From: Saccoglossus kowalevskii
Lineage: Eukaryota; Hemichordata; Enteropneusta; Harrimaniidae
Assembly: GCF_000003605.2 (NCBI RefSeq)
Contig: NW_003155737.1
Span: 106,993-132,529 of the forward strand
Length of the DNA stretch: 25,537 nucleotides
Direction: 5' to 3'
The position numbers were made by a program, and so were the translations under genes. The notes below the pieces were generated by a model, which saw only the letters and a list, made by a program, of their open reading frames with translations, searched no databases and was not told where the DNA came from. How positions within the stretch are numbered: the stretch's first letter is position 1; every line of letters starts with the position of its first letter. Positions 3,709 to 25,537 of this stretch are shown in pieces.

Positions 3709-3716
3709 TATATAAA
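3709..3716 (+). promoter_or_regulatory. Candidate TATA box of the mucin gene
   Basis: A TATATAAA motif lies 179 bp before the predicted start codon. A CCAAT motif (3608-3612) and its reverse ATTGG (3647-3651) lie 60-100 bp further upstream. This spacing fits a TATA/CCAAT promoter with transcription starting near 3735-3745. If so, the 5' UTR is about 150 nt and may include a 27-codon upstream ORF starting with ATG at 3742. Inferred from motifs only. Confidence 0.5.
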
Positions 3717-3894: not shown

Positions 3895-3998
3895 ATGATT
3901 CTTAGCCGGGCAAAAATGCGAACGACTTGGCTGCTTGTCATTACGGTAATTTCTGTGACGCTTGCATCAGAACTATTACAATCCCAAGACACCGAAAA
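3895..3998 (+). CDS. Exon 1: signal peptide
   Basis: ATG at 3895 opens a frame with a basic n-region (R5, K7, R9) and an uninterrupted hydrophobic core from W12 to A24, followed by S25-E26: a classical secretory signal. A second in-frame ATG (M8) would give a shorter signal peptide with the same core and may be the real start. The exon ends in phase 2 at a strong GTAAGT donor. This fits a secreted mucin and sits suitably behind the TATA box. Confidence 0.8.
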
Positions 3999-6900
3999 GT
4001 AAGTACATTTCATTTTCTACTATGCATTCACGCATGCGCTTTAAGTTGACTATATATCAGTGTACCACATTCTTCATAAATTCAAGTAAATTCACATTTA
4101 TTCCAAATTTAAACCATTGTCATGATTTAGATAGTAATTTTTGTAAAATTTGTATGTTTTATATATGTGTTTTAGCAGTTAGTGTAATCATTTTAATTCC
4201 TTCTGAGAAATTTTAAGTGTTTCATAAACTAAACTAAACTAACCTAACATATTTGTACATTTCAGTCAACACACGAGGCAAGAAAGGTCGGCTCCGATAC
4301 GTAAGTTTCTCACCGTCGTTAATTTCATTTGTATTAAAATATCACGTGATATAAATATATGTCGTTAAGAATATTAATTTGTGTATTTTATTTTTTTGAA
4401 TTTTCTGCTTTTATTGACCCAACTTTTACATTAATTATTGCTTTTCGCCCTCAGTTCGAATCCCATCCGATGCAGAACATATTCCAGAAGGTGAGTTGTA
4501 CATATATATAATCACCATCATTATTTTTTAGTTCTCGGGGCGTGTATAATTTTTGTTTGTCCTCGCACACAAACTAGAAAAAGTATGTGCGTTGGGACTG
4601 TCCGGTTTAGGGTAAATTTGGTACAAACAGAGTTGTTAACTATCAGTTTCTGACAAGTCTATATTTCAAGGCACACCTTTTATTTATTTATTTATTTATT
4701 TATTTGTTAACACGCAACATCCCCCGGAGGGAATGAAAAGGGTTACAAATGAGATCAAACCTGATCTGCCTCGACCCTCGATTGGACACTTCAGTACCGG
4801 TACTCTATAATATGCTATTATATACAACCCAGGTTTATTGAGTCGGGACTGTGAAGTGAGAAAAACGCGGCGAGGGACACGCATTCACTTTAATGGTGTT
4901 AACGCTCGTGTAAATAATGTTGACCATGACTGAACATTTCTACGAAATATGGAAGGTTGGTCAAAGCTGCAGTTGGCTTAAGTCCTTGACATGCGCGTAC
5001 ACCTTGTATCTGGGTGCTGATACACCGAGCTGCAAAACTAACTCCGTACAAGCCAGAATAATTTCACCCCAAGTATCGTAATGATATAACGGAACTTGAA
5101 GAATTGAATTATACTAATGCCTAGTTTTCGTGCACGCTATGTCTGTGCCGATATTTACAATATTTGAGAGGAATTCTAGATCATCCGGCGTTCCAGGTGT
5201 TATTATTTGCAAAATTATTGTCAGATGTTGTTGGTTTCGAGACAGGACTAACCTGCTCCCGAAGAGTATGACCCACGGCTAAACGAAACAATTACACGTT
5301 GAACGGAGTTAACCCCAAACAAGCATAAGAAAATTATACTTTTCACCTCCAGTTCCTGAAATGTAATCGTTGGTCTACTTCACTTGAATACGGCCACGCT
5401 ATCCAATTACGCTACAATGATTACATAATACGGATAGTGTCTCGATCCGAGTATTTTGAACCCAACACTCCCTGAGAGTTGACACGCTGAACAAATGAAC
5501 CCCATAAAGCTACTCGATTCATCTTTTTTAGTATAATTTTGGGTGAAAAATTGCCAAAACATATTCTTGAGTAGAAGCGCTTCTATATATTACCAACGTT
5601 TGCCAATTGAAGAATTGTTTATCAAAATTGTCTCAAGTGTAGACAAATATGTTTGTAGTATTTTAGTTAATTTTGTATTTCAGATTCTAAAATTATTTTA
5701 GATTAGTTGTCACGGTGTTATTTTATGTTTCTTATATTAGACTTTACTCAAGCATTTATTTTTGTGTACGTTCTAAATAAAACATTCTATTCTATTCTAT
5801 TCTATTCTATTCTATTCTATTCTATTCTATTCTATTCTATTCTATTCTATTCTATTCTATTCTATTCTATTCTAGCCTCATGACAGTACCCCTTCCCGCC
5901 ACATTATACACTCCCTTAGTACTGCCCTCCCCATCTATTACATCAACCCCTTTACAACAATACATGTCTATCATTTGCCAACCGTGTTCACATTGTGAGG
6001 TCACCACCCGAACGTCTCAGTACTTGCTTGTTCATTGACGTGAATAATTTCCCATTTATTGTCGGAAATTTTCCTTCCAAACTAATTAACATTACAAACT
6101 CGGATACACCATGGAGGTATAAACAGATACCTCCCTGTATATACTAACATTTACGTGATTGATGCCAGTGCGTTTTTCCAATAAACTGAGGAATTCACGC
6201 ATTGGGTTTTGAGCAACTTCGACGTTCAGTAACAGTAACATTTCATTGAATCTTTAGAAAAAGAACTTTTCTATCCGTTGTTGGCAATAAATATATATGT
6301 AACAAAAACTAAAAAATAATACATGTACAAATAACAATCAAAAGAAAAATTACGCAATTTCATTTCGTGTTGTGAAAAACGTTTACAAAACGTTCAATGT
6401 TTTTGATCATTTCCATCACTACTGTAAGACCATTTATTTTCACTGGTATTTAATTTCACTATTTAGGTGCTTTTAGCAATTTTATTGGATTTTAGGTTCA
6501 TGAATGTGGCCGGGAAACAATGAGTTCGACTGTTATTTTTTCATGTTCATTAAAAATAATTTAATTTAGCGAATTTTACTTCTCAACAAACATAGCGAAT
6601 TTAAAAACCAGCGAATAATTAATGTTTCACCAGTATTTTCAAGTAGATGTACAAGTTTCTGGAATGAAATGGTGATTTTAGCAAGGAATGCAGTATCTGT
6701 CAGAATTGTTTGTGGTCTAAAATAATATTTAGGACATGAATTATTATTTTCTATTCCTACATGGATTTAAGTCACCGCGTCTACCCATGATGGCCTAAGA
6801 ACTACAATGTAATAAATAGCCAAGACAAATAACATTATTATTAAAAAACCGTTGTTATTTGTTTCACTAGAAAACCGATGTCTACAGAATGCGCCAGAGA

Positions 6901-9900
6901 GACCAAACAACGGACACATCGCATTCCAGATATCATCAGAGACGCAGTAAGTAATGCAAATCATGGAGCTAAAATGCATTTTTTCAGTTGCACGTACGTT
7001 CTCTGTGGTATATGCCCGAAGTATTACTATAATCACAGTCCCTCTATCATGATAAATTCCTTTCTATCATCGTTTCGTTACTTGCTAATCACGCCATCTA
7101 GCGGCCGTTTCGGAAAGCGGAAACAGGAAGCTGGGGGAAGCGCGACGTTTGACTTTGGAGTAATTCTGCTGTACGTTTTTTTTTTCATATTCAGAGAATT
7201 ATATGCCTCGTGTCTTAATGGTTTTGAATGGGAAACTAACCCAAGATATACCGTGTTCACCTGTAACAATAATGACGGTGTCTGGTCGCCAGAGTATACG
7301 TTGCCAAACTGCATTCGTAAGTAGTATTCATTGCTTGAGGAAGAGTTCATGGTGTTAAAATTTGACAGCAGTGTTGATTTTGTATTTAAGATGGCGGGTG
7401 AGCAATATTCCTGCACAGGGAAATCAGTTTGACTAGAAGAATGTCCCTCGAAAACAAAGAGTTAGATCACGTGTTGTGTTTTACCATAGTTACCGTGCTT
7501 TAGCTCAGCTTTACATACTGGTGCGGCAAATAAATAATCCGATGAATCTAATTTTGTCTACAGTCAACATCATCCTAGGCCAATCTGTTTAAATATAGAT
7601 GTTCTGTACCGGATGTTTTTTTATACATTTTTTATGAATAATAAATTTAAATCAAATAATTAAAATATGGATTCATATTTTGAAAAAAATAACAAACAGA
7701 ATTATAAAGTTCATTGACTGTGTCTACATCCCCAACCATAATAATTATAAAAATCTTCTCGTTACTACCTCATTTTTTTCAGAATAGATAACTGTATTTT
7801 TTTTATCTAACCATTTAAATTTTTTCTTTAAATTGTATGTGTTCTTAATAAAGGTTAAGGTTCAATCCGTAATTTCACTTTGGTATCCTTTGTTTACAGC
7901 AATCTGTAGTCCACCTTGTCAGAATGGAGGTATCTGTTCTGCACCAGGCAGCTGTCAGTGTTTATTTGGCTTCTCAGGCAGTCTGTGTCAGGATTCCTCA
8001 CAAGGTGAGTTGATGTCTGCATGGCCTTATATTTAGACACCGTCCTAGTTGTTATCCCCATATGTATGTTTCAAATTTCACTTTTATATATTAAACAAAT
8101 TTTGTGAACTTCCAAGAACATGAAGCTATTGATTGACTATGATTTCTTACTATGTTTCCAGGAGCAGAGCCCAGCTGTGAAGTACTCTCATCACCTCTCA
8201 ATGGTGAAATAAGCTGTGTTCAGGATAATTTTGGGCTGTAAGTCACTTTTATTAAATTCATTCTTTTCTTTTATTCTTATATGTTTATATTATTATGATT
8301 ATTTTATTTCCATTTCTTTAAAGAAATACATGTATACCCCACTAACCTGGGGGAGCAGGTTACGCTGCATATAAAAAAGAAAGTTACAAGCGTGACTTTA
8401 ATCATCTCAATAAAATAAAATAAAATATTATAACTCATCTATTGGAGAACTCGCACTAACAAATTATATCTAATCTGAAAAGCTGTGTATACAAATCTTG
8501 CAAGAATTTGGATGATTTCATGGTTATCCTGAGAAAAAATATATAAGTTTACTGATAGGCGAAAGGAGCTCAAATTGTCGTTCAATTCAATCAAAAAGTG
8601 GTTTTCGAATATGGTTATATGCTGGACAAACTACCAGAAAATGAGTTTCATCTTCAACAGCATCAATACATATTTGGCAGGTTCTATTATCCACTGGAGT
8701 TCCATAATATCTACCGGTCTCAATGTGTAACTTATGATTAGAGCACCGAAGTTTAGTTAAAGCTTGTCTGTGCAGGGGAACACGAACGATATCCAAATAA
8801 TTCTCGTAAAAAATATTTATTTTAAGTTAGCGAAACGTTCGTAACTTATTTCTACAAGCCATGATTCTGCACACTGTTGATTTCTTCAATCTCAAGCAAC
8901 TGCTGCATGTATATGTGTTTTTTTTCCTGCATTTTGGAGCATTATACTGCCCATTATTGTGTGGCAATAGGGTTGGACGGAGATGTTTGCTTTAATAATT
9001 GGAACACATTGTGCAATTCTCTGTTCTTGCTTTGTTATTATGCAACAATTAGCAGCGTGTCATCATTATTCTCTAAATAACATTAGATATATGCATTTAT
9101 GTCAAAACTATTGTAAAAACAAATTGAGAATGTAAGTTTTAATGCAGTCAATCCAAACACATTGATTTCTGCGATTTTATAACAATAGTCTGTGTATATA
9201 TCTGCATATGCAAATCTATTTGTGTCAAATTATATTTTTATTTTTTTTAGGGTGTGTGAGGCTGTGTGTAACGATAATTATCACTTTGAAAATGGTGGTA
9301 GTACTCTTGTGTACACCTGTAACAATGCTGACCATCGCTGGGCACCAAATGAAAACATTCCAGATTGCACATGTAAGCTGAGCTCCTCCAGTTATAGTCA
9401 TCATCTATTTTCATTCATTTTAGATGCCTACTCATAAAAAAAAATGTTGTTCATAAATCACATGGCACTGTTCACTTTTCTATCATGTACAATCATTGTG
9501 CTATAACAGCATTCGGTTTTAGTGTCATAATTTTGAAAAAAAAAACGGCCAAATATTCAAACCCAGATTATTGAAAAAATTCAAACAAAAAGTCACAAGA
9601 TATTTTCTCACTCTATGTCAATACTTTTAAATATTGCATACACTGTTGTATCTCCATAATTTGAACCAATGATAAAATCTAAAATGTAACCATAATTTTT
9701 TTGAAAAGTAACCTGGATACTCCATACCTTTTTCTAAGTCAACTTTCTTATATTTGACAGGGTTATATGTACAATTTACTGAAAAATGAATAAATTCTGC
9801 ATATTTGTTTTTATGAGTAGGCTTCTTTTTTAAGTTGCACTGATGGTTATTAAGTTTCTTACACCTTTTTATTCCAGCTGACTTTGGCAGTGAAGTGTGC

Positions 9901-12900
9901 AGATACCTTGACCCAGCCAGCAACTCATTCACCAGCTGTCAACGAGGTTCAACAGAAACGTAAGTCGACTTTACATTCAAAATACCCAACTCCCTATTAG
10001 TTCTATAGAAGTGAACTCTTTAGTCCAATAGAAGTGGGCTCTGTAGTGGTCTTCATGGTCAAGTATTTTTTTCATACCTGCACTTCAGCATTTACTCGTT
10101 TCCAAACAAAGAGTTGCACAGCTTCCCTAGCAATAGAGTAACTAACAGTGTTTTGTTATTGTTTCAGGTCTTGTACTGCAACTTGTTCCCATGGCTACCA
10201 GATGAGTAACGGAGAAACATCCGTTACTTATGACTGTAACCATTTAAGTAATCAGTGGATACCAAGCGAGGAATTTCCGCGCTGTGACCGTAAGTTTTCT
10301 TCTGTTTTTTTAGTTTTCTTGATATTACATCAATTAGAAAAATGACTTTAACATCTTTATGAAGAGAAGTACTGCATCTAAATGCACTATTTTTTTTTCT
10401 AAACAGCTGTATGCGACCCACCATGTCAGAATGATGGACTCTGCCAAACCCCAGGGAGGTGTTTATGTCTCCATGGTTACACTGGAAACACCTGTGAAAT
10501 CAGTAAGTATTTTACTGCATAATTTATTTGATTAATAGTTTTAAAATATGAAAATAAAGATTGCTGTTGTGACATAAAACGTTTTCATATCTGTTATAGG
10601 TCCGGAAGATTACTGTGAGAATAATCTGTGTCAGCATGGTAGTACATGTTATAGTAACCCATCCACTCACAGCTATTATTGTTCCTGTGCAGATGGATTT
10701 AACGGCTTCTACTGTGAACATGGTATGTTGTATTTCAAAGAGGTATAATTTTCATTTACATGTGAGTCTTTGGCAAACTTTGATAAATTTGCTGGTGCTT
10801 TGAAATCAACTTGTTCCTACGATAAATTTCTACAATGCCATTATGATAGGAAGACAACCACACAGTTCTGGAGTATGGTTTGTCTGTGTCATTATGATAG
10901 GAAGACAACCACACAGTTCTGGAATATGGCTTTTATGTCATTATATGAACACACAGTATTTTTATGTTGATCCCAAACATGGAATTTGGTTTGTAGCAAA
11001 AGCACTCCATACACATAATTCCACATACAAAATTCAGCAGAGATAAAAGTGACATTCGGTGTCAAGAATTGTCACACAAAAATATATTAAAAAAATATAA
11101 TATTCTGTTGTATTGGTAGATAGTTTTAAGAAATCTTATATAATTTGCATGTGATTTTGAAATTCAATGTCAAAACACTGGTCTATACAGCACATTACGC
11201 TTTACTTTATCACTTCATTCCTACAGTTGTTTGTGCTGAAAGATCTCCAGACAATGGTGCTCTGGCTTGCACACTTAATAACACTATGAAAAGCTGTTCT
11301 TTTCAATGTCTGCCTGGATATCAACTTTCTCAGCCAATCACTAACTCATATCAGTGTCACCTGATCACTGGTCTTTGGACTCCTGAACTACCTGAGGTGT
11401 ATTGTATACGTAAGTATTACTTTTCCACCCTAATGAAAAGCACCGCATGAGACACACTGTTTTCCATATTTGTACCCGTGATGAACATCACATGTGTAAA
11501 TAATATTGTTCATTTGTTGACACAAAATTTGAATGCTTGCTGCATGACAACTGTAATGCTCCAAACCAGATCATTAACAAACTTTTTGTAGCAATTTTGA
11601 TTTTTTTTTAATGTATTTTATCATAGACTCTATAGATATATGAATTTTACTTTATAAAAAACTTTTTCAACTTCTTGTCTTTCAGCTGAAGTGGTTCCAA
11701 CACAAGCAGTCATCATTCCTGCTATGTATCCTACATTAGGACCAGTTGGACCAGGTAATTAAAGCCACTTTTTTCACAACTCCAGTGACACACTTTAACA
11801 AATATGACACATGTAATTAGTTTATGGTACAATGAATTATTGATCACTTTTTAAATCTGAATTTTTTCAGCAAATCCCGATCCACAGCAAGGTGGGTTCT
11901 GTTTCACCTGGGGTCAGAGCCACTATCGTACGTTTGATGGATCAATCTACAACTTCCGTGGTGGTTGCACTTATCTTCTTGCTGGTAATTGTTTGGACAA
12001 CAGCTTCAAAATCCAAGTACATAATGACAATCAGTGTTTAGATGCTGGACACTGTAAACGCTCTCTCACCCTGTTTGTTGGCAATATTGAATTCTCACTT
12101 GACAGTACGCTGAATGGTGTTCTCGTCAGCAGAAATCAACAACCTCTAAACATACCCAACAACATCAATGGGTTGGACTTTTCTAAGGTTGCGGACTATA
12201 TCATTGTCCGCAGTGGTTTAGGCTTTACTCTTAGATGGGATGGAGCTGAAGCAATCTCTGTCAAGGTTTCAGAGTCACTTTTTGATGAGACTTGCGGTCT
12301 TTGTGGGAAGTACAATGAAGACGTCATTGATGATTTTACAGATATCAGTTCTACTGTGGTGAGGTCTGTCTTTGATTTTGCCAATAGCTACAAAATGAAT
12401 GAAATCTCTGAAGGTAGGTCATTTTTAGGTTTCTGCCATTGTTGACATTTCAAAACATGTCTGAACATAATTTTGCTGGTAGAAATTGACTCAACTTTCT
12501 AATGAGAATCCCATTTAAATTTTCACTTCTACAAAATTTCTTGATTTTCCCAGTCTCATGAAATTCATAAAAATTGATGAAAATAAAGTACTAGTAGTAA
12601 TAATTTTTAAATGATGTTAAAATTCATAGTTATTTATTAAATTTGTTTTGGTATTTATATTATCACAGTATTTTGTTATTTGCTTAAATCACAGACCTTA
12701 GATTTATGCTTAAATGAATGACAATTTTTTCTCTGTTTTTCAGATGTTTGTTCAGATAGCAGTCAGCAGTCCCTGTGTCACCATAGTACAAATGACGATA
12801 TTGAGATAGCACAGATAGCAGACAGACTCTGTAATCAGCTTTTAGATTTCTCAGCTTGTCATCATGTGAGTATTCTTTTCTTCTCTATATTTCTGTAACA

Positions 12901-18900: not shown

Positions 18901-21900
18901 ATGACAAAACATTAGGAAATTATTATTTTTTTTAAAAATTTATTAGGTTATCATATTTGCTCTATTTAGTGTCCGCTTACATACATGACGAGGTTATTGC
19001 CCGCTTACATACATGACAGATGTTTGTGTCCGCTTACATACATGACAGACGTTAGTGTCCGCTTATGTACATGACAGATGTGTGTATGGTATATGATATA
19101 TACCGGTAGAAGATAATAATTGGTAATCGTAGTCCTAAATAACTATTAAAAATAGCTAGACGTTTCGAGCAATGGCTCTTTATCGATAGCATAGAAGAAA
19201 GTGTTATAACGTACAGGTAGAACATAGGAACGTAAGAACGTGCATGAACTATAAGTTAGAATCACAAAAAATTCCACAATAGAACAAATAACGCGCCTTA
19301 GGTAGTGAGCTCAACAAATGAGTTGAACTGTTTGTTAATACCATGGGGTTCTTTAGTTCCAAGGCGAAATATAGTTTCCTCCTTGACACGCCTGAGCTGA
19401 TTTTCGTTGCCATTGACAACACATACACCAGAAATAGACATATCTGTAATATTATGTCCACTAGAATTAAAATGAAATGAAACCGGATAATAACGATTTT
19501 TCTGTCTAGTTTGCCGTAGATGCTCAGCAAACCGCATGTATGGTATATACAGTGTATGGTATATACAGTTTTTGGTTTACGTGCACTTCTATTTTTAGAG
19601 ATACTAATATTGTAAATACAATTTTGACATTAAAGTTTTTATTTATTTTCACTTAAATGTAATTTAATTTAGTTTTTTATTGTTGCACTTTCACATTTTA
19701 TTTAAATTAAATTAAATTTTGTTTTATTACAGTACTTGTAATGGGCAACACTGGGAGTGTACATCAAGTGATTGTCCTGAGGTCTGTACTACATGGGGCG
19801 ACTCGCATCATGAAACATTTGATGGTAAACTATACAGATTCCAGGGCCATTGCACATACACCTTATCTCAAAGCACTGCCAACAATCCTCACATCCAGTA
19901 TTCTGTAACTACAGAAAACATCCCGTGTGGTACCAGCGGCGTCACATGCACGAAATCTGTTATTTTCACTGTTGGTAGCGGTAATGATCGTCAACGTATT
20001 GAACTGGTAAGAGATAATCCTGTAGTTTTTCCTAAGGATTCTGTCTTTCAAGTCTGGGAAACAGGAAGGTTTGTGTTCATACGCATCCAGGAAGGTGTAA
20101 CAGTGCAGTGGGATAGAGGAACCAGAGTTTATGTCAAGCTTGATCCAAAGCATAGAGGAATGGTAAGTGGAAAAAGCAAATTTTTATTTTTTCAGATATA
20201 ATTTATAATTTGCTTGAGTCAGAATTAAAACTTATGAGAGATATTTCTTTCCCCAGGTTGAAGGTCTCTGTGGGAATTTTAATAGCAATCAAATGGATGA
20301 CTTCCGATCACCTGCAGGCGGACCATCAATCACGTCATCATTAGAATTTGGCGACAGCTGGAAAGTGTTTGAATCATGTCCAAACTCTGTACATGTTAAC
20401 GATACCTGCAGCCTCGCTCCTCATCGCAAGGCATGGGCTGACAAGAAATGCAGTATTTTAAAGGGACCTTTGTTCCAACCGTGCCATAGTGAAGTTCCTT
20501 ATGAGCCGTACTATGAGACGTGTGTGTATGACGCATGTGGTTGTGATACAGGAGGAGATTGCGAATGCCTGTGTACTGCCATTGCTACCTATGCTGAAAA
20601 GTGCAACATGATTGGTATCTCAACTCGCTGGAGATCGCAATACTTTTGTCGTGAGTATATTATTACCCAATCATCAGCATTAAAGCCACTATAAATAGTA
20701 CTTTTCGTGAGTGTGCCAGGCCAGACATAATGGGGAGACCAAAGCCACTGTACTCTTGGCGAGTGTGCCACAGATATAGTAGAGAGACCTGAGTCACTGT
20801 ACTCTTGGTGAGTGTGCCACAGATATAATGGGGGGTGGGGGGGGGGCGCACCAAAGCCAAAATATTACAACATTTATACTATAGTAAATTATGCTTGGAA
20901 AGGCTATGGTTTGAATTTTGGAATATGCTATATCTTCAATTTCTCAGAGGATTGAGTGTGAGTTATCATCTTCCTCCATGTACAGAGATAAATATATTAT
21001 TTGTTTCTGACTGAAGCCAGTCAATCCCCGACCCACGCTATCAGATTGAACTAATGCACCACTTGTATACATTACCATGAAATATATTTATATTCACAAT
21101 AGCTATGCAGTGTGAGGGATGTGGTCATTATGAAGCATGTACCAGTGCCTGCCCCAAGACGTGTGATAATTACTATCAATATGACACTGTAATGGATCAG
21201 TGTGATCAAACATGTGTAGAAGGATGTCAATGTCCGGATGATGAAGTTTATGATGTAGAATCCAATAGGTGCATTTCCCCATCAGAATGTTACTGTCTTA
21301 AAATCGACGGTGTGAAGTATTTTGAAGGTCAGACCATACAGAGCCTTTCTGATGATTGTCAAACATGGTAAGTGTTTAAACCAGGATTTTATACCACAAT
21401 GATGAAACTGAACACTCAAAAAAATGGAAATCTACTTGGCATGGGAGAATTAGAGTCAAGTCTTATGAGCACTGCAGAACTAGCATATACATTTTTTTTT
21501 ACAACAACCATTCAACTCAAAACTTGTCTTTTGATAACTTGTTTTCTTTTTCTTTCCAGTTTTTGTTCCAACCATAGTCTACATTGTCTGGGACAGCCCT
21601 GTGGATTCACTCCAGCAACCACAGCATACCCTACCTTATCTACTGTATTCACAACAATACTACCAGCTACTACCATGGTGACCACTGGAGAAATTTCTAC
21701 ATTGCAGCCAACTATGGAAGCAACGACTCCTGCCATCACAGAACAAACAACATTGCAACCAACTACAGAGGCAACGACTCCTTCCATCACAGAACGAACA
21801 ACACTGCAACCAACTACAGAGACAACAACTCCTGCCATCACAGAACGAACAACATTGCAACCAACTACAGAGGCAACGACTCCTGCCATCACAGAACAAA

Positions 21901-24900
21901 CAACATTGCAACCAACTACAGAGGCAACGACTCCTTCCATCACAGAACGAACAACATTGCAACCAACTACAGAGGCAACGACTCCTTCCATCACAGAACG
22001 AACAACATTGCAACCAACTACAGAGGCAACGACTACTTCCATCACAGAACGAACAACACTGCAACCAACTACAGAGGCAACGACTACTTCCATCACAGAA
22101 CGAACAACATTGCAACCAACTACAGAGGCAACGACTACTTCCATCACAGAACGAACAACACTGCAACCAACTACAGAGGCAACGACTCCTTACATCACAG
22201 AACGAAGAACATTGCAACCAACTACAGAGGCAACGACTCCTTCCATCACAGAACGAACAACATTGCAACCAACTACAGAGGCAACGACTACTTCCATCAC
22301 AGAACGAACAACGTTGCAACCAACTACAGAGGCAACAACTCCTTCCATCACAGAACGAACAACATTGCAACCAACTACAGAGGCAACGACTCCTTCCATC
22401 ACAGAACGAACAACATTGCAACCAACTACAGAGGCAACGACTACTTCCATCACAGAACGAACAACATTGCAACCAACTACAGAGGCAACGACTCCTTCCA
22501 TCACAGAACGAACAACACTGCAACCAACTACCTCACCATCACCAACTACATCTGTCACTAGTCCAATACCAGTGAGTTCGGCGATGCCTTGCGATAGCTG
22601 GACTCCATGGTTGAATTCTGACATGCCATTCTTGGGAAGCATTGGAGACATGGAAACGCTACAGAATCTGAGAAGCAAGTACACATTCTGTGAACGGCCA
22701 AATATGATTAAATGCCGAACAGTCAATCAACACTATGCACCTAATGAACAGGATATAGGAGTCACATGTCAACTCCATCATGGTCTTAGCTGTGTTAATG
22801 CAAACCAAACATCTGGTCTGTGTTACGATTATGAAGTCAGTTTCTTCTGCCCTTGTGGTAAGTCTAGAATTTTACTGTGTTTTAAAGACTCTCATATTAT
22901 CTTTCGATGTGCTAAGAAAGACTTATTCAACATTTTTTATTTGATATCATTAAAAATTTATTGTCACTATAGACTCACCTTATCTTTTGAGGCACCAAAT
23001 GTGATGCTGTAGCTTTAATTGTGTTCAATGATTTTTTGAGATTTGTGTGTGAATAGGTTTGTATAAATTGATGAATATTTTGGTTGACTAGTGAGTTAAA
23101 GTTGATAAATGGTCTCGTGCCAAACGTTCATGTCACTGTTTTGTTTTGTTTGTGTCCTATAGAGGAAGAAACTACTGTGACCTCGCCTACTGTAAGCACG
23201 TCATTTGTTAAAACTACTCCAGTAACTTTCCATACTGTACCACCAACACTGTGTACACCCGGAATGACACCATGGATGAACATAGACTCTCCTATGGATG
23301 GTGATGGTGACATGGAACCTTTAGATGAATTACGACAGTTTTATGGATTCTGTCGTTTTCCAGAAGCCATAGAATGTCGTGATGCACAGACTGATGAACT
23401 TTATACTAAGACAGGAGAGACCTTAACATGTGACTTGATGAATGGCTTGTTATGCTTTAATTCTGATCAAATTAACGGGCTATGTAGAGACTACAAGGTG
23501 CGACTGGATTGTGGCAACTGTGGAGGTAAGAAATAATGCACTAACTAAGGAAATCTGTGATAGCAATAATTTAATAACGATTTTAATACAACAAAATAAT
23601 GTAACCCTTTGAGCACCATTGTCAACTTGTGGCACCACCTTTTTTTTCAATACCATCTTCTCCTCCTATTAAATGTTGACTGTTTTACAAAATGTGAAAA
23701 TATTTGCTCTGAATTTTGGAAAATACATGTATCTGCCACTCAAAGGGTTAGGCTTCTTTGTAATCCATGAAAAAGATTCTTATTTATGTTTTCACTACTT
23801 GTTTCGCAACTAATATTTGTGAAATTAATCAAATACAGCTGTTTGGAAAACTATCGGTAAATAATCTTTGAGTAAATTATGGCAAACATGGTGGCTTAGA
23901 CTATTTGGTTATTTCTGTTACAAAAGATATAATGAGTTCAAGTCCATGAACTTCTCACTCCCACTGTTTCATAAACGTCTCACCACTTCATGTGTTTCAT
24001 GCTTTCAGTGACGAGTCCACCAAATGTAACTGAGTCTACTTCTGTTACTGAATCTACTACAATATCGAGAACCACAATGTCCACAACCACCGGGATTGAA
24101 ACGTCTTCTCTAAGTCCAATCACCACAGAAGCTGTGACTACGACCACCACTGTCAGTCCAACTACACAAATCTTAACAACTTTGGGTACCTTGAAGCCAG
24201 AATGTATCCAGCATGGATGGAGCCTTTATATGAGCTCTGATGTTGGGGGCTACTTAATGGAAGATGGAGACTTTGAAACATTTGAGAACCTGAGGAAATA
24301 CTACGTTTTCTGCGAAAGACCGGTCGATATTAAATGCCGATTAGTGAAAGATAAAGAGATATACTACAATAACACAGGTCAACGTGGTGTGACATGCGAT
24401 GTGAATCATGGTCTGGTCTGTCTAAATAGATTGCAAGTGCGACCAAGTCGATACTGTTATGATTATGAAGTTAGTGTGTATTGTATCTGTGAAACGCCAC
24501 CACCCTCAACACTTCAGCCAGTTGGTAAGTGATATCCCACAATACAATAAATATGACTGCCAAGAAAAATATTTACCAAATGACATTGACAGACAATGTA
24601 TGTTAATATACATTGTATATTTTGTATTAGAAACCATTTTCAATAGTAGTCCATGCATATTAGCATAAAACTACATTTATTACGTATTTTATGACTAGTT
24701 CTAGGTTTACAACTTGATTGATGCTTAGCATAGATCGCCATGGCCTTGGGACATAAACTCGCCTAATAGTAGCCATTTTTATGTTAAACATTCATTCAAA
24801 ATCAAGCATTTCTGCCATTCCAGAACTGGATTTCTGTTGTGATAATATAGAGTTCATTCAAACTTGGTACATTGAACATTATGTGATCCCCTATGCACAT

Positions 24901-25537
24901 TTGTTTCAGAAGGCCGACTAGTGGCCATTTTGTTTTAACAAATGCTGTTCTGAATGTTCAAACTTTATATACATCGCATCATGTTTACACATATGCACAT
25001 GTAATAATTTGGTGATACAATTCAATATGGCTGAACGGTGGCCATTTTAATGTCTGCCATATCAGGAGCTAGATCTTGGTTGTGTATGGACGGAATTTGT
25101 TCAAATTTGAAATGTACATTGAACATTATGGGACCTTGATGCGTGTCATTTTATGTTTCAGATCGGATTTAAAATGGCTGACTGGCTGCCATTTTGTTTT
25201 AATCAATGCTGTTTGATCCAGAGGCATACCTCAGAAATGCTCTGACCATTTATCTTCAAACGTAAAAATTTAATGAACTTCATGAACTACGTCTTACAAT
25301 TATTTTAATAATATTACAGTTTACCAAATGTAATGATTACTTTATTTTATTCTCTAGTTACTACGACAGAAACCATCAGTACAACTGTGACTGTTACTGA
25401 AACTGTTACTACCACAAGAACCACTGAGGTACCACCTACAACTTCAATTGTCCCAGAAACAACATTTCAAACTATCAGTCCAACAGAATTATTCACTGTA
25501 ACTCTGCCAGAAGCAACATCAGAAATGGCTGAAGAGC
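3895..25537 (+). CDS. Gel-forming mucin-like secreted glycoprotein, 34 exons, partial at the 3' end
   Basis: Joined exons: 3895-3998, 4266-4300, 4455-4490, 6871-6946, 7195-7316, 7900-8004, 8162-8237, 9251-9372, 9878-9959, 10168-10289, 10407-10502, 10600-10722, 11227-11409, 11686-11754, 11871-12413, 12744-12865, 13292-13445, 13815-14052, 14652-14698, 14814-14985, 15424-15571, 16072-16194, 16326-16509, 16998-17174, 17308-17539, 17828-18024, 18267-18360, 19733-20162, 20257-20650, 21103-21367, 21560-22857, 23163-23525, 24009-24524, 25358-25537. All introns are GT..AG and the frame stays open for about 2409 codons. Approximate residues: signal peptide 1-25; sushi1 62-123; EGF1 127-154; sushi2 165-224; sushi3 233-292; EGF2 296-323; EGF3 331-364; sushi4 369-426; D1 451-818; D2 819-1178; D' 1179-1275; D3 1279-1638; T/P/S repeats 1671-1942; CysD1 1968-2056; CysD2 2087-2178; CysD3 2243-2340. 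The D1-D2-D'-D3 plus CysD order identifies the VWF/MUC2/MUC5AC class. No furin-type site is visible between D2 and D'. The C terminus (D4, VWC or cystine knot in relatives) lies outside the window. Orthology to a named mucin cannot be set, so no symbol is given. Confidence 0.93.
4266..4300 (+). CDS. Exon 2: 35-nt micro-exon, basic linker with RQER motif
   Basis: A short exon between a TTTCAG-type acceptor and a GTAAGT donor. It takes the phase-2 end of exon 1 and leaves phase 1. It encodes residues 35-46, including R39-Q-E-R42, which fits the minimal furin pattern RxxR. No domain is visible. The exon rests on splice signals and frame, not homology, so it is less certain than the later exons. 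Confidence 0.65.
4455..4490 (+). CDS. Exon 3: 36-nt micro-exon, linker
   Basis: A symmetric phase 1-1 exon with a CTCAG acceptor and GTGAGT donor, adding residues 47-59 between the signal region and the first sushi domain. It could be skipped without a frameshift. No family is recognisable. Support is splice sites plus frame continuity with exon 4. Confidence 0.62.
4679..4704. repeat. (TTTA)n simple repeat
   Basis: About six uninterrupted copies of a TTTA/TATT tetranucleotide in intron 3. It may be the tail of an adjacent unidentified interspersed repeat. Confidence 0.85.
5690..5874 (+). mobile_element. Retroelement 3' tail ending in (ATTCT)18
   Basis: AT-rich lead-in with AAATAAAAC (about 5775-5783), followed directly by about 91 bp of perfect ATTCT repeats (5784-5874, about 18 copies). 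A polyadenylation-like signal followed by a short-unit microsatellite is typical of the 3' end of CR1/L2/RTE-like non-LTR retroelements. No coding remnant of the element is recognisable upstream, so the element identity is inferred; the microsatellite is seen directly. Confidence 0.6.
6420..6635. mobile_element. MITE-like element with imperfect inverted ends
   Basis: The left end (TACTGTAAGACCATTTATTT) and the reverse complement of the right end share roughly two thirds of about 30 positions, including TACTG, and both lie at TA. The interior contains the same ATTTTCACT and TTTAGGTG words as the clearer element at 14190-14383, suggesting an older relative. The family (Tc1/mariner-type TA insertion) is inferred. 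Confidence 0.45.
6871..6946 (+). CDS. Exon 4: sushi 1, first half
   Basis: This exon is recognised only in the frame set by exon 3, where it reads C62, P67, P70, N71-N72-G73-H-I: the first Cys and the P-x-N-G-x-I signature that open a CCP/sushi domain. Acceptor CACTAG, donor GTAAGT, 76 nt, phase 1 to 2. The first half of sushi 2 is also 76 nt with the same phases, which supports the call. A longer open frame across it in another phase is a shadow. Confidence 0.85.
7091..7104 (-). promoter_or_regulatory. CTCF-like motif
   Basis: On the minus strand CCGCTAGATGGCGT matches the bilaterian CTCF core CCASYAGRKGGCRS at 12 of 14 positions. It lies in intron 4. A single motif match is weak evidence of binding. 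Confidence 0.3.
7195..7316 (+). CDS. Exon 5: sushi 1, second half
   Basis: 122 nt, phase 2 to 1. It encodes a Cys followed by NGF, the F-T-C strand, and W-S-P..PNC ending at C123, giving the Cys-G-F/Y, Cys, W and final Cys of a sushi domain. Together with exon 4 it makes one four-Cys CCP. The acceptor follows a long T tract and the donor is GTAAGT. The paralogous second halves of sushi 2 and 3 are also exactly 122 nt. Confidence 0.92.
7317..7899 (+). other. Intron 5, no further feature seen
   Basis: AT-rich intronic sequence between sushi 1 and EGF 1. I see no repeat, RNA gene or exon in it. Confidence 0.6.
7900..8004 (+). CDS. Exon 6: EGF-like domain 1
   Basis: Symmetric phase 1-1 exon encoding six cysteines (C127, C131, C137, C143, C145, C154) in the order C-x3-C-x5-C-x5-C-x-C-x8-C with CQNGG and a GFSG turn: a compact EGF-like domain without the calcium-binding D-x-D/N-E start. 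Such modules usually mediate protein contacts outside the cell. It is closely similar to EGF 2 in exon 11, consistent with module duplication. Confidence 0.95.
8162..8237 (+). CDS. Exon 7: sushi 2, first half
   Basis: 76 nt, phase 1 to 2, the same size and phases as exon 4. It encodes C165, then P-L-N-G-E-I-S-C, the opening of a CCP domain. The additional Cys suggests a six-Cys sushi variant, like those known in selectins, once exon 8 is joined. Confidence 0.9.
8290..8830 (-). mobile_element. LINE 3' end (non-LTR retrotransposon remnant), antisense in intron 7
   Basis: Minus-strand reading at 8587-8796 shows [15 protein letters not shown], then C-x2-[15 protein letters not shown] and R-K-P-L-F. 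This is the conserved C-terminal tail of reverse transcriptases of CR1/L2/RTE-like LINEs, with the HxLxIExGRY and CxxC..EDExHFLxxCP motifs. A frameshift near 8587 separates it from continuing LINE-like residues toward 8460. The strand ends toward 8290 in A-rich, AATAAA-like sequence. It is a 5'-truncated, non-autonomous copy. Confidence 0.8.
9251..9372 (+). CDS. Exon 8: sushi 2, second half
   Basis: 122 nt, phase 2 to 1. It encodes V-C-E-A-V-C, then Y-T-C, a Trp, and a final D-C at C224. Joined to exon 7 it gives six cysteines and the conserved W of a sushi domain. TTTTTTTTAG acceptor, GTAAGC donor. Confidence 0.93.
9426..9822. mobile_element. Candidate inverted-repeat element in intron 8
   Basis: A perfect 15-bp inverted repeat (GCCTACTCATAAAAA at 9426-9440 and its complement at 9808-9822) bounds about 397 bp of AT-rich sequence; similarity extends a few bases further inward. 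No target-site duplication is clear. It may be a MITE or a chance or foldback structure. Confidence 0.4.
9878..9959 (+). CDS. Exon 9: sushi 3, first half
   Basis: 82 nt, phase 1 to 2. It encodes C233 (V-C-R-Y-L-D-P) and a second Cys in FTSC, parallel to exon 7 but two codons longer and without the P-x-N-G core, so it is a more diverged CCP opening. Assigned by exon position, phases and the following half. Confidence 0.88.
10168..10289 (+). CDS. Exon 10: sushi 3, second half
   Basis: 122 nt, phase 2 to 1. It encodes [10 protein letters not shown], then Y-D-C, a Trp, and C292 in PRC. The HGY turn, W and terminal Cys are the CCP signature. With exon 9 this is a six-Cys sushi domain. Confidence 0.93.
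10407..10502 (+). CDS. Exon 11: EGF-like domain 2
   Basis: Phase 1-1, 96 nt. Six cysteines (C296 to C323) follow the same spacing as EGF 1, starting [10 protein letters not shown] and ending G-Y-T-G-N-T-C. This is clearly the paralogue of exon 6. The pattern sushi (split) + EGF occurs twice, so a three-exon block was probably duplicated. Confidence 0.95.
10600..10722 (+). CDS. Exon 12: EGF-like domain 3
   Basis: Phase 1-1, 123 nt. Six cysteines from C331 to C364 ([23 protein letters not shown]). It has a longer third loop than EGF 1 and 2 and is the classic EGF type. Directly after EGF 2. Confidence 0.95.
10839..10940. repeat. Two-copy 51-bp tandem repeat in intron 12
   Basis: Two direct copies of a unit beginning CATTATGATAGGAAGACAAC start at 10839 and 10890. 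The first about 40 bp of each are almost identical and the rest diverges. It produces an open shadow frame that is not a gene. The rest of intron 12 (10723-11226) shows nothing else. Confidence 0.8.
11227..11409 (+). CDS. Exon 13: sushi 4 (single exon)
   Basis: 183 nt, phase 1-1, unlike the three split sushi domains. It encodes [25 protein letters not shown] and the final Y-C at C426: six cysteines and all CCP landmarks. Loss of the internal phase-2 intron, or an independent origin, distinguishes it. Confidence 0.95.
11686..11754 (+). CDS. Exon 14: Pro-rich linker
   Basis: 69 nt, phase 1-1, encoding residues 428-450: seven prolines (including PEVVP and GPVGP) and no cysteine. It separates the sushi/EGF head from the D assemblies and is probably flexible or extended. 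Being symmetric, it can be skipped in frame. Confidence 0.85.
11871..12413 (+). CDS. Exon 15: VWD domain 1 (D1)
   Basis: One 543-nt exon holds the whole VWD domain. It opens [15 protein letters not shown], the canonical VWD start, continues [11 protein letters not shown], and reaches CGLC (592-595) followed by N-x-D-x3-D-D, the calcium-loop pattern. In VWF and MUC2, D1 and D2 with CGLC act in pH-dependent assembly and disulfide multimerisation in the secretory pathway. That role here is inferred from the family. Confidence 0.96.
12414..12743 (+). other. Intron 15, nothing further seen
   Basis: AT-rich intron between VWD1 and C8-1 with no repeat or exon that I can support. Confidence 0.55.
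12744..12865 (+). CDS. Exon 16: C8-1, first part
   Basis: 122 nt, phase 1 to 0. It begins D-V-C634, then L-C-H-H, L-C-N-Q-L and A-C-H-H: the first half of a C8 module. It continues directly into exon 17. Confidence 0.9.
12866..13291 (+). other. Intron 16, nothing clear
   Basis: Contains a GGGTTCAAACC word resembling a tRNA B box near 12989, but no A box or clover-leaf. No exon or repeat is supported. Confidence 0.5.
13292..13445 (+). CDS. Exon 17: C8-1, second part
   Basis: 154 nt, phase 0 to 1. It encodes [23 protein letters not shown] and W-R-Y-E-E-R-C723: the diagnostic C8 ending (C..YA..C...G....WR...C). It completes the C8 module of D1. Confidence 0.95.
13446..13814 (+). other. Intron 17, nothing further seen
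   Basis: AT-rich intron with a short TA dinucleotide run near 13759-13770. No gene or mobile element is recognised. Confidence 0.55.
13815..14052 (+). CDS. Exon 18: TIL-1 and start of E-1
   Basis: 238 nt, phase 1 to 2. TIL (trypsin-inhibitor-like) pattern: C727, [18 protein letters not shown], then D-E-C-P-C starting the E module. The exon splits a Cys codon (TG|T); all four TIL-E units in the gene share this phase-2 position. Confidence 0.95.
14192..14381. mobile_element. TA-flanked MITE with 23-bp inverted ends in intron 18
   Basis: The left end CTGTGGAATACTTTATTTTC and the right end are inverted complements with one mismatch over about 23 bp. Each side is bordered by TA, the target duplication of Tc1/mariner-superfamily elements. 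The 190-bp interior has further TTTTCGCTG/CAGCGAAAA words and no ORF. Confidence 0.75.
14652..14698 (+). CDS. Exon 19: E-1 module
   Basis: 47 nt, phase 2 to 1. It completes the split Cys codon and encodes [15 protein letters not shown], the short W-x-C finger (E module) that closes D1. Its GTGAGT donor abuts the exon end. Confidence 0.92.
14814..14985 (+). CDS. Exon 20: VWD2, first part, with GDPH
   Basis: 172 nt, phase 1 to 2. It opens A-T-C-S-A-Y-G825-D826-P827-H828-Y-V-T-F-D-G, the VWD start. The G-D-P-H sequence is the known autoproteolytic site type of MUC2/MUC5AC D4 and FCGBP VWD domains, here found in D2. The last 66 nt of the exon and its donor are copied in tandem just downstream. 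Confidence 0.95.
14920..15115 (+). repeat. 98-bp tandem duplication across the exon 20 donor
   Basis: Copies at 14920-15017 and 15018-15115 differ at about two positions. Each contains the last 66 nt of exon 20, the GTAAGT donor (14986 and 15084) and the start of the intron. The second copy lies in intron 20. Because 98 is not a multiple of 3, and TAA directly follows the first exon end in frame, using the second donor would terminate the protein. The remainder of intron 20 (15116-15423) has no other feature. Confidence 0.95.
15424..15571 (+). CDS. Exon 21: VWD2, middle part
   Basis: 148 nt, phase 2 to 0. It encodes [19 protein letters not shown] and [11 protein letters not shown], the central beta-strands of VWD with the V-x-V-N-G turn. 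The donor GTGGGT is weaker than most here. The exact end is fixed by frame with exon 22. Confidence 0.88.
15572..16071 (+). other. Intron 21, nothing further seen
   Basis: 500 bp AT-rich intron inside VWD2. No repeat, RNA or exon is supported. Confidence 0.55.
16072..16194 (+). CDS. Exon 22: VWD2, CGLC part
   Basis: 123 nt, phase 0-0. It encodes G-I-Q-V-K-W-D, R-V-Y-V-T-V-P and [10 protein letters not shown] (CGLC at 955-958), the late VWD strands and the thiol-exchange-like motif shared with D1. Confidence 0.95.
16326..16509 (+). CDS. Exon 23: end of VWD2 and start of C8-2
   Basis: 184 nt, phase 0 to 1. It completes the calcium loop (N-D-F-W) after exon 22, then F-G-N-K-W-S, the conserved end of VWD, followed by S-C, P-C and Q-L-C-G-M-L of C8. 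An open frame in another phase over the same DNA is a shadow. Confidence 0.93.
16510..16997 (+). other. Intron 23, nothing further seen
   Basis: AT-rich intron with a short TCTATTCTAT run near 16928. No other feature is supported. Confidence 0.55.
16998..17174 (+). CDS. Exon 24: C8-2, second part
   Basis: 177 nt, phase 1-1. It encodes [29 protein letters not shown] and W-R-D-V-V-P-Q-C1086, a full C8 ending. Unlike C8-3 it has only one Cys at the C-x-C-x-C site. Confidence 0.95.
17308..17539 (+). CDS. Exon 25: TIL-2 and start of E-2
   Basis: 232 nt, phase 1 to 2. C1090, [25 protein letters not shown]: a TIL domain closely parallel to exon 18. It ends by splitting the same E-module Cys codon. 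Confidence 0.95.
17828..18024 (+). CDS. Exon 26: E-2 module and first part of TIL' (D')
   Basis: 197 nt, phase 2 to 1. It starts [10 protein letters not shown] (E-2) and runs without an intron into C1185-[14 protein letters not shown] and P-G-C-Q-C-L-E-G, a second TIL not preceded by VWD or C8. This TIL'-E' unit is the D' region of VWF/MUC2-type proteins. No RxxR cleavage motif lies at the D2/D' boundary. Confidence 0.95.
18267..18360 (+). CDS. Exon 27: end of TIL' and start of E'
   Basis: 94 nt, phase 1 to 2. It encodes [13 protein letters not shown] and D-C-N-T followed by the split Cys codon, closing TIL' and opening E'. Confidence 0.93.
18971..19080. repeat. Minisatellite, about 4 copies of a 28-29 bp unit
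   Basis: The words CCGCTTACATACATGACAGA start at 18973, 19001, 19030 and 19059 with small differences. It sits directly beside the Penelope-like insertion in intron 27. Confidence 0.85.
19095..19536 (-). mobile_element. Penelope-like element 3' fragment
   Basis: Minus-strand reading at 19298-19537 shows F-A-E-H-L-R-Q, then [18 protein letters not shown], later E-E-T-I-F-R-L-G-T and P-H-G-I-N. This is the GIY-YIG endonuclease C-terminus typical of Penelope-like retroelements (HFNSxGH..DM, LGT..P.G.N). The piece is 5'-truncated. TGTATGGTATAT occurs at 19083-19094 and 19537-19548, a candidate 12-bp target-site duplication. Confidence 0.75.
19155..19192 (-). ncRNA. Degenerate hammerhead-ribozyme-like segment of the Penelope element
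   Basis: On the minus strand: GCTA, TCGATAA, a stem AGAGC-CATT-GCTC, GAAAC, GTC, TAGC. The order stem I / CUGAUGA-like / stem II / GAAA / short stem III with GUC / stem I matches a type I hammerhead. GCTA/TAGC and GAGC/GCTC can pair. The CUGAUGA box has three changes, including the position of catalytic G8, so activity is unlikely. Hammerhead motifs are known in Penelope-like elements. Confidence 0.45.
19733..20162 (+). CDS. Exon 28: E' module and most of VWD3
   Basis: 430 nt, phase 2 to 0. It starts [10 protein letters not shown] (E'), then P-E-V-C1279[22 protein letters not shown], the VWD start, and continues to R-V-Y-V-K-L-D at the last strands. VWD3 is carried by two exons, against one for VWD1 and four for VWD2. 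Confidence 0.96.
20257..20650 (+). CDS. Exon 29: end of VWD3 and complete C8-3
   Basis: 394 nt, phase 0 to 1. It encodes [16 protein letters not shown] (calcium loop; Glu replaces the first Cys of CGLC), F-G-D-S-W-K, then the whole C8: C-S-I-L, D-A-C-G-C, G-D-C1506-E-C1508-L-C1510, Y-A-E-K-C and W-R..F-C1535. The CxCxC matches VWF Cys1097/1099/1101, where 1099 is an interchain cysteine. Confidence 0.96.
20709..20850. repeat. Three-copy, about 50-bp tandem repeat in intron 29
   Basis: Units start at 20709, 20761 and 20810 with GAGTGTGCCA and share ACTGTACTCTTGG. Two units carry GTGAGT (20707, 20809), the same donor as exon 29 (20651). A G-rich run follows at 20830-20846. Nothing else is recognised to 21102. 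Confidence 0.8.
21103..21367 (+). CDS. Exon 30: TIL-3 and start of E-3
   Basis: 265 nt, phase 1 to 2. M-Q-C1539-E-G-C1542-G-H-Y-E-A-C1548-T-S-A-C-P-K-T-C, then E-G-C-Q-C-P, S-E-C-Y-C. It is a TIL domain like exons 18 and 25 but with an extra Cys (1542) that the other three TILs lack. By alignment from the preceding F-C-P-x-x-C it corresponds to interchain VWF Cys1142. Confidence 0.95.
21560..22857 (+). CDS. Exon 31: E-3, Thr/Pro/Ser repeat domain and CysD1
   Basis: 1298 nt, the largest exon, phase 2 to 1. It begins [11 protein letters not shown] (E-3), then a T/S/P-rich lead, then 16 perfect-length copies of [17 protein letters not shown] (residues 1671-1942), about 59% Thr/Ser/Pro: a mucin domain for dense O-glycosylation. 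It ends with CysD1: C1968-D-S-W-T-P-W1974, G-D-M-E-T-L, F-C-E-R-P, I-K-C-R, V-T-C, G-L-S-C, L-C-Y-D-Y-E-V, C-P-C. The W-x-x-W is intact. Long antisense and out-of-frame open frames here are by-products of the repeat. Confidence 0.96.
21699..22532 (+). repeat. 51-bp coding minisatellite, 16 units plus a partial
   Basis: Unit boundaries fall exactly every 51 bp from 21699 to 22514 with no indel; the 17th unit breaks off after about 18 bp. Variation is confined to a few codons: CTG/TTG at position 2, CCT/ACT (P/T) at 11, TCC/GCC/TAC (S/A/Y) at 12, CGA/CAA at 16. Units 11-13 and 14-16 show the same P,T,P order, suggesting a three-unit duplication. Confidence 0.97.
22858..23162 (+). other. Intron 31, nothing further seen
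   Basis: 305 bp AT-rich intron. The open frame that continues into its first 155 bp is read-through past the GTAAGT donor. Confidence 0.6.
23163..23525 (+). CDS. Exon 32: T/S/P spacer and CysD2
   Basis: 363 nt, phase 1-1. A 30-residue T/S/P-rich spacer precedes C2087-T-P-G-M2091-T-P-W2094, [34 protein letters not shown]. All CysD cysteines are present, but the first Trp of WxxW is Met. Symmetric phases make the exon a duplicable or skippable cassette. Confidence 0.95.
23602..23750. mobile_element. Short piggyBac-like MITE in intron 32
   Basis: Ends TAACCCTTTGAGCACCA and CTGCCACTCAAAGGGTTA are inverted complements at about 15 of 18 positions and bound 149 bp. CCCTTTG ends next to TTAA-like flanks (GTAA and TTAG) fit a decayed piggyBac-type MITE. 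The rest of intron 32 (23526-24008) shows nothing else. Confidence 0.55.
24009..24524 (+). CDS. Exon 33: T/S/P spacer and CysD3
   Basis: 516 nt, phase 1-1. About 65 Thr/Ser-rich residues, without the 17-residue repeat, precede C2243-I-Q-H-G-W2248-S-L-Y2251, G-D-F-E-T-F, F-C-E-R-P, I-K-C-R, V-T-C-D, G-L-V-C, Y-C-Y-D-Y-E-V, C-I-C. It is a CysD in which the second Trp of WxxW is Tyr. Confidence 0.95.
24766..25235. repeat. Diverged tandem repeat, about 250-265 bp units, in intron 33
   Basis: Two related stretches start at about 24766 and 25034. Each begins GCCATTTT, contains ACATTGAACATTATG (24869 and 25116) and ends with GCCATTTTGTTTTAA plus ATGCTGTT (24924 and 25188). Offsets vary between 247 and 268 bp. 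No coding content. The family is unknown. Confidence 0.6.
25358..25537 (+). CDS. Exon 34 (5' part): Thr-rich mucin segment, cut by the window end
   Basis: After a CTCTAG acceptor the phase-1 frame stays open to the edge. It encodes about 60 residues rich in Thr, Val and Glu ([11 protein letters not shown]) with no Cys, another O-glycosylation-type spacer. By the pattern of exons 31-33 a further CysD is expected to follow. Confidence 0.88.

Follow-up and report, generated by a model that had tools for sequence, protein, structure and literature searches.

Predicted gel-forming mucin gene of Saccoglossus kowalevskii with sushi-like and EGF modules ahead of a D1-D2-D'-D3 core

The window analysed here, a stretch of 25,537 nucleotides of the hemichordate Saccoglossus kowalevskii, contains a predicted mucin gene on its forward strand. 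Thirty-four exons were joined from position 3895 to the window end, and a script check confirmed that all 33 junctions are GT-AG, that the phases are consistent and that the frame is free of stops; the joined product has 2,409 aa and its frame is still open at the window end. Because the junctions were picked by eye from the reading frames such that known domains stay in frame, the matching phases cannot count as fully independent support. The quality of the splice donors is more independent support for the joins, with 25 of 33 matching at least 7 of 9 consensus positions versus 4.3% of all 1,613 GT dinucleotides on the + strand (the gene's own included). The predicted protein starts in exon 1, which has a second Met at 3916, and its modules follow the order sushi-EGF-sushi-sushi-EGF-EGF-sushi, a 23-aa linker, a complete D1-D2-D'-D3, T/P/S repeats and three CysD domains (Table 1). 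A reading of this DNA made from sequence only (hereafter the sequence-only reading) had proposed a sushi/EGF head in front of a complete mucin core with a T/P/S-CysD region, and the in-phase open frame of 34 exons, together with the Pfam matches, confirmed this arrangement.

Table 1. Features of the predicted mucin gene (window coordinates)
Feature	Position	Strand	Evidence or remark
TATA-box-like sequence	3709..3715	+	Regex consensus match only; ~180 bp upstream of ATG
Exon 1: start codon and probable signal peptide	3895..3998	+	Putative leader, hydrophobic peak 3.08
Exons 2-3 (4266-4300, 4455-4490): short spacer with RQER, furin-like motif	4266..4490	+
Sushi-like module 1 (exons 6871-6946, 7195-7316), 4 Cys	6871..7316	+	Cys/Trp pattern, exon layout
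EGF module 1, one exon, phase 1-1	7900..8004	+	Pfam EGF_2 7.3e-06
Sushi-like module 2 (exons 8162-8237, 9251-9372), 6 Cys	8162..9372	+	Pattern, exon layout
Sushi-like module 3 (exons 9878-9959, 10168-10289), 6 Cys	9878..10289	+	Pfam Sushi 14.3 bits, below 20.7 cut-off; pattern
EGF module 2, one exon, phase 1-1	10407..10502	+	Pfam EGF_2 1.2e-05, EGF 2.5e-05
EGF module 3, one 123-bp exon, phase 1-1	10600..10722	+	Pfam EGF 1.3e-05
Sushi module 4, one exon, 6 Cys	11227..11409	+	Pfam Sushi 3.2e-06, 27.9 bits, above 20.7 cut-off
Linker exon, 69 bp, 23 codons, phase 1-1, Pro-rich, Cys-free	11686..11754	+
D1 assembly, exons 15-19: VWD1 with CGLCG, C8, TIL, E	11871..14698	+	Pfam VWD 3.2e-32, C8 4.9e-18, TIL 2e-07
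D2 assembly, exons 20-25: VWD2 with GDPH and CGLCG, C8, TIL	14814..17539	+
GDPH motif in VWD2, residues 825-828	14831..14842	+	Known type of autocatalytic Asp-Pro cleavage site
D' region, exons 26-27	17828..18360	+
D3 assembly, exons 28-30 and start of 31: VWD3, C8-3, TIL3, E	19733..21608	+
Cys1506, equivalent of MUC2 Cys1088, first Cys of CECFC, inter-chain disulfide	20560..20562	+	Alignment
Cys1542, equivalent of MUC2 Cys1130 (CEWH), second inter-chain cysteine	21120..21122	+	Alignment
T/P/S region	21609..22592	+	51-bp repeat x16.3 (21699-22531), about 40% Thr (40.5%)
CysD 1 (Mucin2_WxxW)	22593..22857	+	Pfam; PDB MUC5AC CysD 1.2e-12
CysD 2	23246..23525	+	Pfam, own-genome match
CysD 3	24194..24496	+	Pfam, own-genome match
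Further T-rich exon, start only, cut by window end	25358..25537	+

The four sushi and three EGF modules first proposed for the head hold up to different degrees. The EGF modules can be regarded as secure, as all three exceed a Pfam cut-off (EGF_2 or EGF) when searched singly. The sushi modules are less certain: module 4 scores above the Pfam Sushi cut-off, and modules 1-3 are assigned by their Cys/Trp pattern, by the way their exons are arranged and by a profile that matches CCP proteins weakly. Searched singly against Pfam Sushi, one of the four modules lies above the cut-off, one below it, and modules 1 and 2 are unmatched; Sushi was likewise absent at E <= 0.1 when the whole 450-aa head was compared with Pfam, and an NCBIfam search of the head gave zero matches. 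All four modules share a C, C, C, W, C framework, and modules 2-4 have a regular six-Cys spacing of 13, 9, 4, 17 and 16 residues (within one), with module 1 lacking two of the six. Each of modules 1-3 is interrupted by an intron at a similar position (exons of 76+122, 76+122 and 82+122 bp). The six-Cys sushi spacing of selectin modules resembles that of the window modules, and EGF and sushi modules are neighbors in selectins and in C1r/C1s; the head differs from these proteins in lacking a lectin, CUB or protease domain and in sitting on a mucin polymer.

A profile built from the four modules matched CCP/sushi proteins in the PDB in 47 of 48 rows at E <= 10 (best E 4.2e-5, many matches being partial), including C4BP, DAF, factor H, beta-2-glycoprotein I and others. 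The profile without module 4 was weak, with CCP proteins in 16 of 19 rows, a best E of 0.006 and an Ig-like protein as the second row (0.0081). A sushi-pattern regex, itself written from these modules, finds four instances on the gene strand and zero on the antisense strand. Single-sequence AlphaFold, run on module 4 only, gave four strands at a poor pLDDT of 59.9.

Pfam identifies three VWD, three C8, four TIL and three Mucin2_WxxW domains in the core (CysD 6.2e-61). D1 to D3 form one continuous alignment to MUC5B, MUC5AC and MUC2 (for MUC5B, over query residues 6-1183 at 626 bits), and it is this unbroken match that bears out the description of D1-D2-D'-D3 as complete. MUC2 chains are reported to be joined via C1088 (CECFC) and C1130 (CEWH) (PMC11207715), and MUC5AC chains via Cys1132 and Cys1174 in the same two domains (PMC11933400). 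The predicted protein has aligned equivalents of both MUC2 residues in D3, and its C8-3 region closely resembles that of MUC2. On the basis of VWF numbering, C1508 had initially been taken for the inter-chain residue; this candidate was dropped as the MUC2 text points to C1506, and both cysteines are present. CysD and a PTS region have been reported together in Deuterostomia (PMC9169620, citing others). Downstream on the scaffold lie a TIL, a VWD with GDPH, a C8, a second TIL, a sub-threshold VWC and a Cys_knot (2.1e-11) followed by a stop. These D4 parts and the cystine knot would be the expected C-terminus of a mucin, and we infer that they belong to this gene across the unreadable stretch that lies between.

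Could the protein be of the VWF/hemostatic or SCO-spondin-like type rather than a mucin? High scores are also obtained with FCGBP (764 bits, summed over repeated stretches) and with VWF (up to 657), and D1-D2-D'-D3 and the D3 cysteines are common to VWF and the window gene. The long Thr-rich repeats and the three CysD domains argue against such an assignment, as do the absence of a VWA match in the four pieces scanned with Pfam and of an R-x-x-R, furin-type site between D2 and D' by regex; among the alignments printed, MUC2 gives the best per-stretch score for C8-3 to TIL3. We consider this reading highly improbable and treat the product as a mucin.

The own-genome search covered 4,830 contigs (572 Mb) and returned 73 CysD matches, a large CysD/mucin repertoire, and at least 158 VWD matches. 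Among the CysD matches listed, only the three in the window fall on the window scaffold; others are on C2922, C4131, C4081, C3976 and further contigs, many of them clustered, and one on C2922 lies in a stop-free frame of 9,175 codons that N's may have lengthened. The same genome contains a mitochondrial COX1, and the mitochondrial code read from COX1 and ND1 fits Hemichordata: AAA encodes Lys at conserved ND1 sites, TGA encodes Trp, AGA is compatible with Ser, AGG does not occur in these two genes, and ATA coincides with Ile positions of the COX1 motifs MPIMIGGFGNW and LTGIVL. In other groups, AAA stands for Asn (echinoderms), ATA for Met (amphioxus and molluscs) and AGA for Arg (cnidarians). 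In a D1 tree (10 rows, two of seven inner branches well supported), the window gene and a gene on contig C3976 are sisters with a support of 96/93, and their D1 assemblies are 51% identical. Ahead of its D1, the sister gene has a split sushi-like pair (26-31% identical to the window gene's four modules, with no Pfam match), an F5/8C (discoidin) domain (Pfam 9.5e-28, exact exon join), an EGF exon (Pfam 1.4e-07, 49% identical to EGF module 3), a sushi exon of 192 bp (20.3 bits, just below the 20.7 cut-off, and 36% identical to sushi module 4) and a linker exon that has length and place alone in common with the window linker. The sizes of the EGF exon (123 bp), the linker exon (69 bp) and the split sushi exons (76+122 bp) are equal in both genes. 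CysD occurs on the same contig, and the D3 motif is 'GGDCECFC'. The sister gene differs from the window gene in its F5/8C domain and in the smaller number of modules found.

A phase-1 acceptor precedes D1 in all six genes of the D1 group, and exon evidence gives a sushi-containing head in two of these. The gene on C2261 has three EGF regex matches before D1, which are matches rather than joined exons. A signal peptide placed directly at its D1 was rejected, the 'leader' being the T-run of a splice acceptor. C2922a, C2922b and C3574 are headless in the readable part of their upstream DNA, and, with other parts unreadable, absence of a head is not claimed for them. More distant VWD genes on C1755 and C999 have sushi/EGF or EGF matches nearby; on C1755, three sushi and six EGF regex matches (again not joined exons) precede a divergent VWD. 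On C999, at ~886,900-889,100, a CCDGWHGKYC peptide and an EGF match precede a D1-D2-D3 set, an arrangement that resembles the EMI-EGF start of SCO-spondin-like proteins. The C2261 gene carries GDPH in both D2 and D3, with the D3 motif GGDCECLC.

The head and the mucin core were proposed to belong to a single gene, and this is very probably the case. In the alternative arrangement, a small secreted sushi/EGF protein (3895-11409) would be followed by a separate mucin gene starting at D1. Such modules often form small secreted proteins, and elsewhere in the genome sushi/EGF exons occur near VWD exons (C1755, C2261). However, the introns at the joint between head and mucin are merely 276 and 116 bp, both joints flanking the linker exon are in phase 1, and read-through of exon 13 reaches a stop after 13 residues and yields no sensible end. 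The signal AATAAA is absent from 11410-11870, where one ATTAAA occurs at 11758. We identified 21 alternative first-exon candidates in 9373-11870, none of which combines a leader with a good donor: two candidates from 10843 are as hydrophobic as the leader of exon 1 (3.1 against 3.08) and have poor donors (GTCATT and GTTCTG), and the sole start candidate with a GTAAGT donor is not hydrophobic (0.97). The sister gene, which could in principle share a two-gene arrangement, has the same EGF-sushi-linker-D1 exons, its linker exon also being 69 bp long. Taken with the intron sizes and phases, this exon series makes two adjacent genes improbable, and we continue with a single gene.

GDPH motifs in other VWD domains are described as being cleaved between Asp and Pro, with a disulfide that may hold the pieces together (PMC10880436). 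By residue counting, the helper Gln of FCGBP D10, whose mutation has a partial effect, corresponds to Thr840 in the window gene, so cleavage at its GDPH may be incomplete. We compared the cysteines of D2 and D3 using the VWD pairing scheme of VWF. One of the usual VWD cysteine pairs (before 'NNP' and in E-GLCG) is missing altogether from D3, and in D2 only the partner is missing, which leaves C955, the first Cys of the D2 CGLC (16159-16170), alone. This residue may be a free thiol; its partner is absent in both headed paralogues. The sister gene shows the same cysteine states in D2 and D3, but its D2 does not contain GDPH.

The closest known systems are the gel-forming mucins MUC2, MUC5AC and MUC5B, which share with the window gene D1-D2-D'-D3, a T/P/S region with CysD, the inter-chain cysteines of D3 and, in the candidate C-terminus downstream, D4 parts and a cystine knot. 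The window gene differs from them in the head that precedes D1, with its four sushi-like and three EGF modules, and in the GDPH of D2. The GDPH assembly of MUC5AC is D4. Human MUC2 and MUC5AC are described as having GDPH in one of their four D assemblies, which is D4 in MUC2 (PMC10880436). It had been stated that vertebrate gel-forming mucins start directly with D1; this is nearly right and needs one amendment, as MUC5AC has an ordered segment before VWD1 that contacts VWD3 of another chain (PMC11912381).

Among invertebrate deuterostomes, Ciona GFM1 is likewise a mosaic gel-forming mucin, with 30 domains of 13 types and a D1-D2-D'D3-D4-VWC-CK organization (PMC6109156). GFM1 differs in adding a chitin-binding domain and FN2 and in having a PTS of just 50 aa, and the section describing it does not name sushi or EGF modules (PMC6109156). 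Mosaic gel-forming mucins were thus already known, and a sushi/EGF head before D1 appears to be a new variant of them. We found no gel-forming mucin with a sushi/EGF head among the literature titles and abstract openings listed, and we make no claim of absence from print. Such a head is also not named in the portions of the sea-anemone and placozoan mucin literature covered.

On the basis of the predicted architecture, the gene probably encodes a secreted gel-forming mucin with a seven-module head and a short Pro-rich linker between signal peptide and D1, in which each node of the polymer would bear two binding heads. Chains would pair via the C-terminal knot and then via D3, as in MUC2. Furin cleavage of D1-D2 has been described for VWF (PMC9169620). 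Since R-x-x-R is absent between D2 and D', D1-D2 and the head should instead stay on the chain, so each D3 node would keep two heads projecting from D1 and the polymer would display a regular array of them. Single contacts are perhaps weak, and many together could hold a ligand in the gel. Candidate ligands are glycoproteins of microbial or host origin or a further protein of the mucus; a complement-like function of the head, which the sequence-only reading had suggested together with a role in mucosal immunity, is at most possible. Because the pre-VWD1 segment of MUC5AC touches VWD3 of another chain, the linker may dock in a similar manner and lift the head off the bead. Phase-1 introns flank each head module, which suggests that exon shuffling placed the head in the phase-1 intron that precedes D1.

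The main rival to a binding surface is that the same gene encodes a head with a structural part in mucin assembly, such as packing, chaperoning or storage. The contact made by the MUC5AC segment (PMC11912381) and the equal linker length in the sister gene are consistent with such a role. However, the head of the sister gene differs, with F5/8C added and fewer modules found, and this fits changing targets more easily than fixed packing; we consider a structural head possible but doubtful and favor a binding head. We further speculated that mucins of this type have exchangeable recognition heads, in which the same polymer core bears one or another phase-1 exon cassette (sushi/EGF in the window gene, sushi-F5/8C-EGF-sushi in its sister), the gel forming a multivalent matrix, encoded by the genes, that captures different targets. 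In a bolder addition, GDPH cleavage would leave the head and D1 on the polymer via the C821-C958 disulfide, beside the partnerless C955, and thiol exchange could release the head. As the sister D2 lacks GDPH, the release idea would be limited to the window gene. This proposal is a tentative one, and we consider it unlikely as it stands.

Gel-forming mucins are usually viewed as passive gels whose selectivity comes from sugars. If true, a protein recognition head in the polymer, varied between sister genes, would make mucus a selective trap. In a hemichordate gene, this would bear on mucus-based filter feeding and defence in early deuterostomes. A swap of modules at the phase-1 intron before D1 would be a clear route by which heads arise and gives a prediction for other genomes.

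Several further features of the window were observed. Viral and prokaryote contigs yielded no confirmed relatives of the exon-29 peptide, in keeping with its origin in an animal gene. An ORF of 103 aa at 1914-2222 (+) gives weak, consistent AID/APOBEC-like matches, all below cut-off (NAD1 0.0023, NAD2 0.0042, APOBEC2 0.0085, APOBEC_N 0.026 and SNAD4 0.1), and contains the motif HTE...SPCYSH. None of nine shuffles of this ORF matched AID/APOBEC-like families, and searches of the PDB and NCBIfam returned zero matches; it may be what remains of a deaminase gene, as a fragment or a dead exon. The ORF at 8587-8826 (-) has a weak match to the reverse-transcriptase zinc domain zf-RVT (E 0.032, below cut-off) and is perhaps a LINE remnant in an intron. 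Within D2, a 98-bp tandem duplication at 14913-15118 (97% matches) has copied the end of exon 20 and its splice donor into the intron, and read-through past the first donor stops immediately. Intron 3 contains ATTCT repeated 18.2 times without mismatch (5784-5874).
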